Notes under the pieces: model-generated
What the model was told of the DNA's origin: nothing
The model's database searches: none
Seen by the model: only the letters and a program-made list of their open reading frames with translations
Part shown: positions 60,841-64,000 of the stretch, piece by piece
How the letters are laid out: each line of letters starts with the position of its first letter
How positions within the stretch are numbered: the first letter of the stretch is position 1
Translations under genes and position numbers: made by a program
From: Pelagomonas calceolata
Lineage: Eukaryota; Sar; Pelagophyceae; Pelagomonadales; Pelagomonadaceae
Length of the DNA: 64,000 bases
Reading direction: 5' to 3'
Assembly (NCBI GenBank): GCA_918797485.1
Contig: CAKKNE010000003.1
Coordinates: 1,612,001-1,676,000, forward strand

Positions 60841-63800
60841 TCAGGATTTCGGCACCTCCCACACCTTGAGCGTCTGGTCGCGCGACGCAGACACGACGCA
60901 CCGCCCGTCCGGAGAGATAGCAACGCCCTGGACCTACGACGAAGCCAGATCATCACAAAAGTACCAAAAAAAGCGGACGCCGCGCGACGCACGGTACGCG
61001 AGTGCCCGTTCAGCGTCGCCACGCATTCGCCGGTCGCCACGTCCCACACCTTGAGCGTGTTGTCCCACGAGCCAGACACGACGCGCCGCCCGTCCGGAAA
61101 CACGGCAACGCACTCGACCTACGACGAAGCCAGATCATCATAAAAGTGCAGTGGACGCCGCGCGACGCACGGTACGCGAGTGCCCTTTCAGCGTCGCCAC
61201 GCATTTGCCGGTCGCCACGTCCCACACCTTGAGCGTGTTGTCCTGCGACGCGGACACGACGCGCCGCCCGTCCGGAAACACCGCGACGCAATTGACCTAC
61301 GACGAAGCCAGATCATCACAAAAGTACAGTGGACGCCGCAACGCACGCCGTCCGAGTGCCCTTTCAGCGTCGCCACGCACTCGCCGGTCGCCACGTCCCA
61401 CACCTTGACCACTCCTGGTTTCTCCCATTCCCCATCACAAGACACGACGCTCCGCCCGTCCGGAAACACGGCAACGCCATAGACCTACGACGAAGCCAGA
61501 TCATCACAAAAGCACAGTGGACGCCGCAACGCACGCCCTTCGAGTGCCCTTTCAGCGTCGCCAGGCACACGCCGGTCGCCACGTCCCACACCTTGAGCGT
61601 CCTGTCCAACGACGCAGACACGACGCGCCGCCCGTCCGGAAACACGGCAACGCTCTCGACCTACGATGAAGACACATCAGCACAAAAGTACAGTGGACGC
61701 CGCGCAACGCACCCAATTCGAGTGTCCTTCCAGCGTCGCCACGCATTCGCCGGTCGCCACGTCCCAGACCTTGAGCGTCTTGTCACCCGACCTAGATACG
61801 ACGCGCCGCCCGTCCGGAAACACCGCAACGCTCGTGACCTACGACGAAGCCAGATCATTACAAACGTACAGCGGACGCCGCAACGCACCCAATTCGAGTG
61901 CCCTTCCAGCGTCGCCACGCATTTGCCCGTCTCGATGCCCCACACCTTGAGCGTGTTGTCCCACGAGCCAGACACGACGCGCCGCCCGTCCGGAAACACG
62001 GCAACGCTCGTGACCTACGACGAAGCCAGATCATCACAAAAGTACAGTGGACACCGCGCGCCGCACGGATTTCGAGTGCCCTTCCAGCGTCCGTAGCACG
62101 GCGAGCTTGGACAGGTCCACGCCTTCGAAGAACGGCATGAACCGCAGTTTGCCGCGCGACGCCGTCGCGACCGCGCTCGCGTCCCAGATCGACTGCGTGA
62201 CCTTGATTGGCTCGGCTCGGCGGCGCCGTCGCATCTGGTAGTCCTTGTGCGTGCCGCAGACGCCACACTCTTGAGTCTGCGCGCCGTTAGGTCGCTTGCA
62301 GACGGAGCACGTCCAATTCGAGGGCGACCACTGCTTTACAGTCTCGGATAGATACGCGCTATGCCCCTCGTCGCTCTTTTTCGTCGCCTCCGGTGCATTC
62401 AATTTGGCCGCAGTGGTCGCTGCAACCACGACGTCATCGGCAGCCGCCTCCGCCCGATTCTCGCGCTCCGCGGCCTCATCAAATTCTTCATCAGCGTCGA
62501 GCTCTACGTGCCCTAGGAACTCGAGCCAGCCGCCCGGTACCGCTTCATTCACAACAGCAACCGCGAGCTGCGCGCGAGTCATCGCGCGATACAAACGCGA
62601 CCGCGTCTCGAGCACGCCCGCGCCGCGATCGATGACTTGGTCCAGCCCCACACAAATAACGACGAGCCGTTCCAAACCGTCCATGTTGTCGACCGTATCG
62701 ACGACGAGCCACTGCTTCGAGCTGTCGCGCGCTTCGGTTTCGACGCGCGGCCAGACCGCGCTCGCCATCGCCGCGTCGACGAGCTCGAAGCGCGCGAAGG
62801 TCAGCGTGATGTCACTGCGCAGCGTCCAATTTTTATTTAGGTAGAAGCTCCAGCCCTTGTGCGACGCATAGGCTTTGCAGGACTTGTCGCCATGCGCCTT
62901 GCCGACGCACCATGAACCCGATGAACGCTCGTAGAGGTAGAGCCCGTTCGCGGCGCAATAATACGCGGCGCCACCGATCCCACCCGTTTCGCGGTCGAGG
63001 ACATAGGTGCCGCAAGCGGCTGGAGGCTGGTCGGAAGTCGACGCGAGGGTGGCGCTCATCGGGGCGAAGGAGTCGAGAGCGCGGTCTAGCGGTCCGCGGA
63101 GCCGCTCGACAAACGCGTCGTCGGGTCCCACGACGGCGACACGGTCATCCAGATCGTCAAGGTCCGCGAGCTGGCGCCGTATGGCCGCAATTGCTTCGAC
63201 GACCTCACGCGCATAGATATCATCCGTATCATCCTCTACTGGAAAGATCCGTGCCACGAGCGGCGGCCCCGGCGATGCCGTGTACGTCGACATCTCGGCT
63301 TTTCGGCCGGCATCGAGCTGGAACGCGGCGGCGCCAGCGACGATGCGCTTCGTCGACCGTACCACCTCGGAGAGCGTCGCGACCGCAACAGCCTGATCCC
63401 GAGGCAAGTTTACTAGCGAGCGCGCAAGCTTCTCCGCGTCAGGCGTTGCCTCCGTCGCCTGCGAAGCGTCGCTGAGGAACACGAGGGTCGCCTCCGCTGC
63501 GTTCACTCCAGCGAGCTGCTCGCGCAGCTGCAAGTCTTCCGTGAGATGATGCGCCTCGTCCACCACGACGAGCGCATACTCGCATTTTTGCGCGGCGCCA
63601 AGCGAGAGTCGCCGCCGCGCACCCGCCGCTTCGACGCGCACGCGCCGCGGCCCGTTTTCGAACGGCGCCACCAGCACGTGAACGCGGTCGACGATCCGAT
63701 CGACCGACTCTTGCGATGCGTAGACGAGCCACTTGCAGACGAAGAACGCCAATGCGGTATTCCGCGCGACGAACAGAAGCATCGCCCTGGGATCAGAGCT

Positions 63801-64000
63801 GAGGACCTGTGCCATGCGCTGGATTGCAAAGAACGTCTTGCCCGCGCCCGCGTGGGCGAGCAGCACGGCAACGGGCTCGCGTCGGACGGTCTCGAGCTTC
63901 TCGCGCTGGTGCTCCGTGAGCTTGGTGAACCTCATCACGGTCTGCTCGTAGCTTTCGAGGAACGCCCCGCGATTGACGCTGATCCGCTCCCCGCCGGTCG
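60841..64000 (-). CDS. SF1-helicase-like / RanBP2 finger / WD40 protein, 5' partial
   Basis: Runs off the right edge (open frame [18 protein letters not shown] upstream). Eight minus-strand exons: 62067-64000 (partial), 61889-62014, 61713-61838, 61535-61660, 61347-61484, 61171-61296, 60993-61118 and 60841-60933. The first exon carries Walker [10 protein letters not shown], Walker [27 protein letters not shown] and the SF1 motif-VI-like [17 protein letters not shown] perfect RanBP2 finger follows ([19 protein letters not shown]). Each later exon encodes one WD40 blade ([22 protein letters not shown]). Introns are 50-59 bp, all phase 0. The role is unknown; the build is that of a sensor with an NTPase and a repeat-based recognition face. 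Confidence 0.87.
60934..62066 (-). repeat. Tandem array of WD40 exon-plus-intron units
   Basis: Six consecutive units of about 176-189 bp, each a 126-nt exon (138 nt in one) and a 50-59-bp intron, plus a seventh intron. Both exon and intron are nearly identical between units; introns share GTGCGT at the donor and CTTCGTCGTAG at the acceptor. This shows duplication of whole genomic units. Confidence 0.93.

Follow-up and report, generated by a model that had tools for sequence, protein, structure and literature searches.

Analysis of a 64,000-nucleotide stretch of the Pelagomonas calceolata genome (the window; positions 1612001-1676000 of contig CAKKNE010000003.1, here C3) revealed a gene whose C-terminal part encodes a seven-blade WD40 array, and which belongs to a family of at least eight loci, seven of them distinct, a count that the DNA search gives as a lower bound. 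The array anatomy, the modular make-up of the family, the homogenisation of its repeats and a non-synonymous excess at the top-face positions of the HET-E model, all read from the genome sequence, suggest a small family of intracellular recognition proteins that may work like the fungal HET-D/E/R (HNWD) proteins on modules not of the NLR type, a reading to which we assign a probability of about 0.57.

Structure of the window gene

The genome sequence used here comprises 32,445,274 bases in 8 contigs, and the available portion of PMC9481584 describes an assembly of 32.4 Mb with six nuclear contigs, plastid and mitochondrion. The window gene lies on the minus strand, with its start at C3:1676982 (982 nt past the window end), and consists of exon 1 followed by seven blade exons that end at window position 60841. 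Its features, in window coordinates and in the order of the gene, are as follows.

62067-64000, on to 64982 (C3:1674067-1676982), minus: exon 1, 972 aa
62547-63923, minus: SF1 / Schlafen-group-3-like helicase NTPase, residues ~354-812, Pfam score over cut-off
62793-63065, minus: insert between the helicase halves, residues ~640-730
62217-62327, minus: RanBP2-like zinc finger, residues 886-922, four Cys kept, sub-threshold
62015-62066, minus: intron, 52 nt
61889-62014, minus: blade exon 1, 126 nt
61839-61888, minus: intron, 50 nt
61713-61838, minus: blade exon 2, 126 nt
61661-61712, minus: intron, 52 nt
61535-61660, minus: blade exon 3, 126 nt
61485-61534, minus: intron, 50 nt
61347-61484, minus: blade exon 4, long-loop variant, 138 nt, 46 aa
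61297-61346, minus: intron, 50 nt
61171-61296, minus: blade exon 5, 126 nt
61119-61170, minus: intron, 52 nt
60993-61118, minus: blade exon 6, 126 nt
60934-60992, minus: intron, 59 nt
60841-60933, minus: terminal blade exon 7, 93 nt including the stop

The seven repeat copies occupy 60841-62014 on the minus strand at a spacing of 176-188 nt, in agreement with the seven blades in tandem exon-intron units described in an earlier sequence-only reading of this DNA. The exon sizes given there (six of 126 nt, one of 46 residues) needed correction, as five exons are of 126 nt, one is of 138 nt and the terminal one is of 93 nt. The residues listed as variable (2-3, 16, 18, 20 and 41-42) were found as described, and the core called invariant proved nearly but not fully so, with WGIETG in blade 1 and WDVATG in the others. 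The recurrence of the array at seven further places in the genome, with 79-85% identity, indicated that it is more than a chance pattern. The introns, predicted from the sequence, are of 50-59 nt with GT..AG borders, and since the lengths of 50, 52 and 59 nt are not multiples of three, the frame is kept only if they are removed; the blade exons are thus probably spliced together. By count, the terminal blade and the strand from exon 1 would close a seven-blade ring. The intron pattern, allowing up to three mismatches, had 51 matches in the genome; all of them are confined to the eight arrays, and an introner-like origin was not supported.

Exon 1 encodes, in order, an N-terminal helical domain (beyond the window), the helicase-like NTPase, the insert, the RanBP2-like finger and the first propeller strand. 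The Pfam scan of exon 1 gave 29 bits for the SLFN-g3 helicase family (PF09848, cut-off 24) and 24.8 bits for ResIII (PF04851, cut-off 22.5), and GAGKT and DEAH are present in the exon, which we take to be helicase motifs. The SF1-helicase-like NTPase of the sequence-only reading was borne out by these scores, whereas the RanBP2 finger stayed below threshold (12.2 bits, cut-off 27) with its four cysteines retained. Stretches similar to the insert occur in a 724-aa frame at C4:2397620, which by eye resembles calpain, and in a 530-aa frame at C1:4841705. For the N-terminal 240 residues, the predicted model (pLDDT 73) shows a bundle of helices plus a long helix, and its comparison with known folds gave no significant match.

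The Pfam scan at E<=1 matched no NACHT, NB-ARC or ROC-COR domain in exon 1, and no N-terminal Schlafen core or further Schlafen domain. The Pfam scans of the window gene, whose N-terminus is predicted to be helical, gave no HET domain either. No STAND NTPase scored over its cut-off (nSTAND_NTPase5 11.8-20.3 bits, cut-off 34; nSTAND6 11.9 bits, cut-off 27.7), and the helicase families outscored the nSTAND families in the scan of the family proteins. As NACHT and HET were looked for and not found, the window gene is not a member of HNWD, nor does it encode an NLR protein, there being no NACHT, NB-ARC or HET match in the Pfam scan. Just upstream of the window gene, at C3:1678157-1679980 on the minus strand, lies a patatin-like phospholipase (PF01734, 90 bits), with no evidence of a link between the two genes. 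Patatin domains are known immune effectors in other systems.

One array behind different front ends

Paralogues, which the sequence-only reading had proposed to look for, were present with both related and unrelated N-termini, and the DNA search returned two array fragments besides the loci mentioned above. Each distinct gene carries six full units and one terminal unit, and thus seven blades throughout; two of the C6:714 units, whose intron is irregular, were read by eye and left out of the counts, so that 47 of the 49 units were extracted. The loci C1:264 and C5:264 lie in a published duplicated contig end (contigs 1 and 5 have duplicated ends according to the accessible part of PMC9481584), which leaves seven distinct genes. 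These two copies (C1:264277-265540 and C5:264190-265453) are near-identical, with frames broken at different places, and the deposited models, P0013 and P0021, leave out the WD40 array.

The array is preceded by different modules at different loci. C3:840 has the N-terminal domain of the window gene (39% identity over window-protein residues 11-147) and a protein kinase, C3:4036 has a helical bundle and a kinase, and C3:4040, C1:3880 and C1/C5:264 have a RelA/SpoT-like N-terminus and a helicase. In the alignment, the start of C6:714 looks similar to those of the RelA/SpoT-like type; its N-terminus had no database match, and the Pfam scan gave no helicase match. PF09848 scored over cut-off also in both RelA/SpoT-type helicase paralogues scanned. 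A profile of seven RelA/SpoT-like N-termini gave Tas1 (6ox6) as its top match (E 3.3e-4), with GYRD and GELQ invariant in all seven; Pfam RelA_SpoT matched one of the seven, weakly (E 0.036). The residues that we assigned as catalytic in the RelA/SpoT-like synthetase domain of the paralogues are presumed to be so, and the MGxxxS start of these paralogues is presumably a myristoylation site.

All 18 of the 149 listed WD40 matches that read through TAG fall in the eight loci; 150 of 632 candidates were scored in this genome scan, and other genes of the same layout may have been missed. Two relics were seen: at C4:3177 (within C4:3172500-3182499), a frame that looks kinase-type is followed by no more than a decayed blade, and at C5:4979 (within C5:4974500-4984499), an orphan blade lies in surroundings where no gene was seen. 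At C6:457490-458716, a stretch related to the helicase module at 37-64% identity continues in one long frame into F-box-like and RCC1-like stretches, which were named by eye and would make it a helicase-type NTPase joined to another kind of propeller. Long open frames at 17 genome places scored over cut-off for NACHT-type NTPases, and near some of them a frame of equal length matches WD40 (C4:907912 NACHT, C4:911860 WD40), and canonical NLR-like genes may therefore coexist with the array family.

The protein search with exon 1 returned 39 proteins. The Aureococcus protein P0027 combines a RelA/SpoT-like start, a helicase region and seven V/IVSGS motifs, with H, D, S, A, N, Y and R at the equivalents of position 18, and P0022 combines helicase and blades. 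Among 77 database relatives compared, 14 reached an identity of 80% or more with exon 1 of a family gene (80-95%). In all nine with a readable GHSxx pair, the residues at 41 and at 42 are both unlike those of the nearest family gene: MI against DY in P0160 (95% identical), KT against DR in P0007 (94%) and RE against KS in P0001-P0003 (87-88%), with YH in P0004, KG in P0014, KT in P0161 and EL in P0166. P0001, P0002 and P0003 are almost the same protein. The nine relatives, which served in place of a comparison between strains, may be alleles, paralogues or other species. Modules of the family also occur in other company: P0005 has the window-type helicase with an RNA-recognition-motif C-terminus replacing the WD40 array (precomputed Pfam), and P0178, P0190, P0191 and P0193 link PF14312 repeats to the helical-bundle region, three of these four proteins also having a kinase match. 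P0178 has FG-GAP-type repeats with an apparent signal peptide and membrane helix, a receptor-kinase layout.

Searches for close relatives of exon 1 gave none in viral contigs or in prokaryote species genomes, and viral contigs held no relative of the intron pattern or of the RelA/SpoT-like alignment. A search with the propeller alone was uninformative on pelagophyte relatives, as 7945 of 7997 scored candidates matched and the matches listed included bacterial, fungal and unnamed WD40 proteins. Judged by title and start of abstract, none of the matches listed in a literature search on Aureococcus and stramenopile WD40, NACHT and immunity reported the family, and the term wd40 has 0 occurrences in the main text available for the P. 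calceolata genome paper (PMC9481584).

Variable positions and their counterparts in HNWD

To count variation, we used the 29 canonical 42-aa units among the 47 extracted, dropping length variants and terminal units. Positions 42, 2, 18 and 41 carry 13, 12, 13 and 10 different residues (entropy >3 bits), and positions 20 and 3 carry 5 and 4. Weaker variation was found at 37, 31, 16 and 28 (three or four residues, two or three of them common), and 23 of the 42 codons show no residue change at all. In the accessible text of Paoletti et al. 2007 (PMC1805685), positive selection was reported at HNWD codons 7, 9, 25 and 27, which flank the conserved codons 8 and 26; in a HET-E homology model, the selected codons map to the d-a loop and b-c turn of the top face. 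By our reading of the register, these codons would correspond to 42/2 around V1 and 18/20 around D19. The positions 42, 2, 18 and 20 rank 1, 2, 3 and 5 of 42 in entropy, a result with a chance of 1.8e-5 (2 of 111,930 possible sets are as good), and the further variable positions 41 and 3 adjoin them. Through this register, the variable residues would be placed on the top face of the algal propeller as well.

By sequence, the solved structure nearest to the spliced propeller was 2YMU (E 5e-138), presumably a Nostoc WD40 propeller. Like the algal array it has near-identical blades, but its position 18 is Asp in the aligned repeats and Ser in the last one, and its position 2 alternates among few residues. 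It is thus repetitive and not hypervariable, which indicates that repetitive propellers need not vary at these positions.

As far as the HNWD literature available to us describes them, the fungal and algal families are alike in their near-identical WD40 repeats, in concerted evolution across loci and in diversifying selection at four positions, arranged as two flanking pairs 18 residues apart. They differ in that HNWD has a NACHT and a HET domain and the algal gene has neither, that the algal family has one exon per blade, and that HNWD units tend to cluster by gene whereas the algal units do not. All seven distinct algal genes have seven blades, whereas the repeat number of HET-D/E varies, active alleles having 10 or 11 repeats, in arrays that were recently modelled as two seven-blade propellers in work available in part. 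The resemblance to HET-E drawn in the sequence-only reading held for the homogenised 42-residue repeats and the four varying positions, but does not extend to the NACHT and HET domains or, among the seven distinct paralogues, to a varying blade number.

Two other known systems come close. The brown-algal NB-ARC-TPR and LRR-ROCO candidates are likewise stramenopile and have repeats on separate exons; the portions of PMC11378527 at hand, which also cover Zambounis et al. 2012, describe exon shuffling, diversifying selection and a suggested immune repertoire. In that account TPR or LRR repeats are combined with NB-ARC or ROC-COR, whereas the algal family combines WD40 with helicase or kinase. Schlafen group III shares the SLFN-g3 helicase domain with the window gene, which differs in its C-terminal propeller and in having no other Schlafen domain in Pfam at E<=1. 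The literature cited (PMC2873952, PMC1805685, PMC11378527, PMC12222747 and PMC9481584) was available in part.

Homogenisation of units across loci

The non-variable exon stretches and introns of 40 units were compared. Units taken from any two genes differed by 7.5-10.3%, and those of a single gene by 7.6-10.0%; for the 29 canonical units, the mean difference was 0.090 within and 0.092 between genes (permutation p 0.31). At four-fold sites of exon 1, the window gene differs from C1:3880 or C3:4040 by 40-43%, and these two differ from each other by 23%. The nearest unit in another gene stood at the same place for 8.4 of 40 units (6.6 expected, p 0.18), and the long-loop blade is found at places 4, 5-6, 2 and 1 in four genes. 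Equal differences within and between genes, together with unmatched places, imply that the units form a single pool subject to exchange. Duplication in a recent burst, with shuffling afterwards, may instead account for the similarity of the units, and it would strengthen the selection result described below.

The same observations bear on the most serious alternative, in which the genes have no role in immunity, each propeller scaffolds a different endogenous partner of a helicase or kinase, and the top face has changed as these partners diverged after duplication. The top face of WD40 propellers is a general surface for interactions, only about eight loci are present, and helicase and kinase modules are of general use. 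However, homogenisation across loci and reshuffling of places would scramble dedicated partnerships, and relatives of 94-95% identity already have unlike 41-42 pairs, so we regard such paralogue specialisation as unlikely.

Selection at the variable codons

For codons 42, 2, 18 and 41, pN was 0.68, compared with a difference of 0.089 in the introns of the 29 canonical units, a pS of 0.155 for the remaining codons and 0.143 at four-fold sites of the invariant codons. The non-synonymous difference is thus 7.6 times that of the introns (bootstrap 6.2-10.2) and 4.4 times the synonymous difference (bootstrap 3.7-5.3), ratios that come from a counting method in which unit pairs are not independent and which recombination affects, as it does any such count. 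The synonymous difference at the four codons was also high (0.57), in our view partly because of path counting between very different codons. Relaxed constraint, by which the variable positions would be tolerant loops that drift freely, agrees with the surface loops that the equivalent positions form in the HET-E model, as far as published in the text available; free drift should not exceed the neutral level, however, and a pN above it leaves this explanation improbable unless introns and synonymous sites are both constrained.

The localised excess is also left unexplained if the protein is a nucleic-acid enzyme (Schlafen-like or another SF1 helicase) with the array as its scaffold and the repetitiveness as a trace of recent duplication alone. 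The SLFN-g3 match over cut-off and the sub-threshold RanBP2-like finger speak for such an enzyme, but the same array also occurs behind kinases and in a protein that gave no helicase match, and we consider this account just as improbable as relaxed constraint.

Pairs of units with the same residue used different codons in 13 of 65 cases at position 2, 8 of 63 at 18 and 5 of 26 at 42, which suggests that much of the variety at these positions is a shuffled pool rather than fresh mutation; position 41 showed the opposite pattern (28 of 45), its codons being mostly unlike. Among 14 position pairs tested, only the neighbours 2-3 were associated (n=29-47 units, low power), in line with codon variants of a common pool reassorting within the 126-nt exon. 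A mutator targeted at these codons, with selection secondary, would agree with the per-base diversity of 0.55-0.75 at codon positions 1-3 of 2, 18, 41 and 42, but the shared codons at 2, 18 and 42 and the low-powered finding of a single association speak against it and make it highly improbable.

Proposed mechanism and its meaning

In the recognition-protein reading that we favour, the C-terminal seven-blade propeller would act as the sensor, with residues 42, 2, 18 and 20, and in addition 41 and 3, from every blade forming a ring of ~28-42 variable positions on its top face. Units would be swapped and homogenised between loci, introns included, by gene conversion or unequal crossing-over, while diversifying selection would keep the top-face codons unlike. 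The front end, which differs among loci in its mix of helicase-like NTPase, protein kinase, helical bundle and RelA/SpoT-like domain, would serve as switch or output, and a ligand on the top face would release or oligomerise it and so set off a defence or death response. Ligand recognition, switching by the NTPase or kinase, and an immune, pathogen-sensing or self/non-self output are thus proposed parts of this mechanism. The small family and the blade number, constant among loci, count against a receptor; in its favour we counted that the bundle-kinase module has relatives that follow FG-GAP-type repeats and what looks like a membrane helix (P0178).

A broader proposal, which we put forward tentatively as possible though not probable, is that pelagophytes run intracellular receptors equivalent to NLRs without the NLR switch, in which a hypervariable, locus-homogenised WD40 sensor sits on interchangeable outputs (a Schlafen-type helicase, a kinase behind an MLKL/RPW8-like bundle, or a RelA/SpoT-like synthetase), and that the logic of fungal-type allorecognition evolved independently in this widespread ocean picoalga, on other machinery.

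What single-celled algae of the ocean use to recognise viruses, bacteria or one another is, in our view, an open question, and the family supplies named loci, exact codons and a testable surface for addressing it. If the recognition reading is true, it would show that recognition repertoires arise more generally by concerted evolution combined with selection on the top face of WD40 propellers, a route then taken in a stramenopile without the NACHT switch of fungi.
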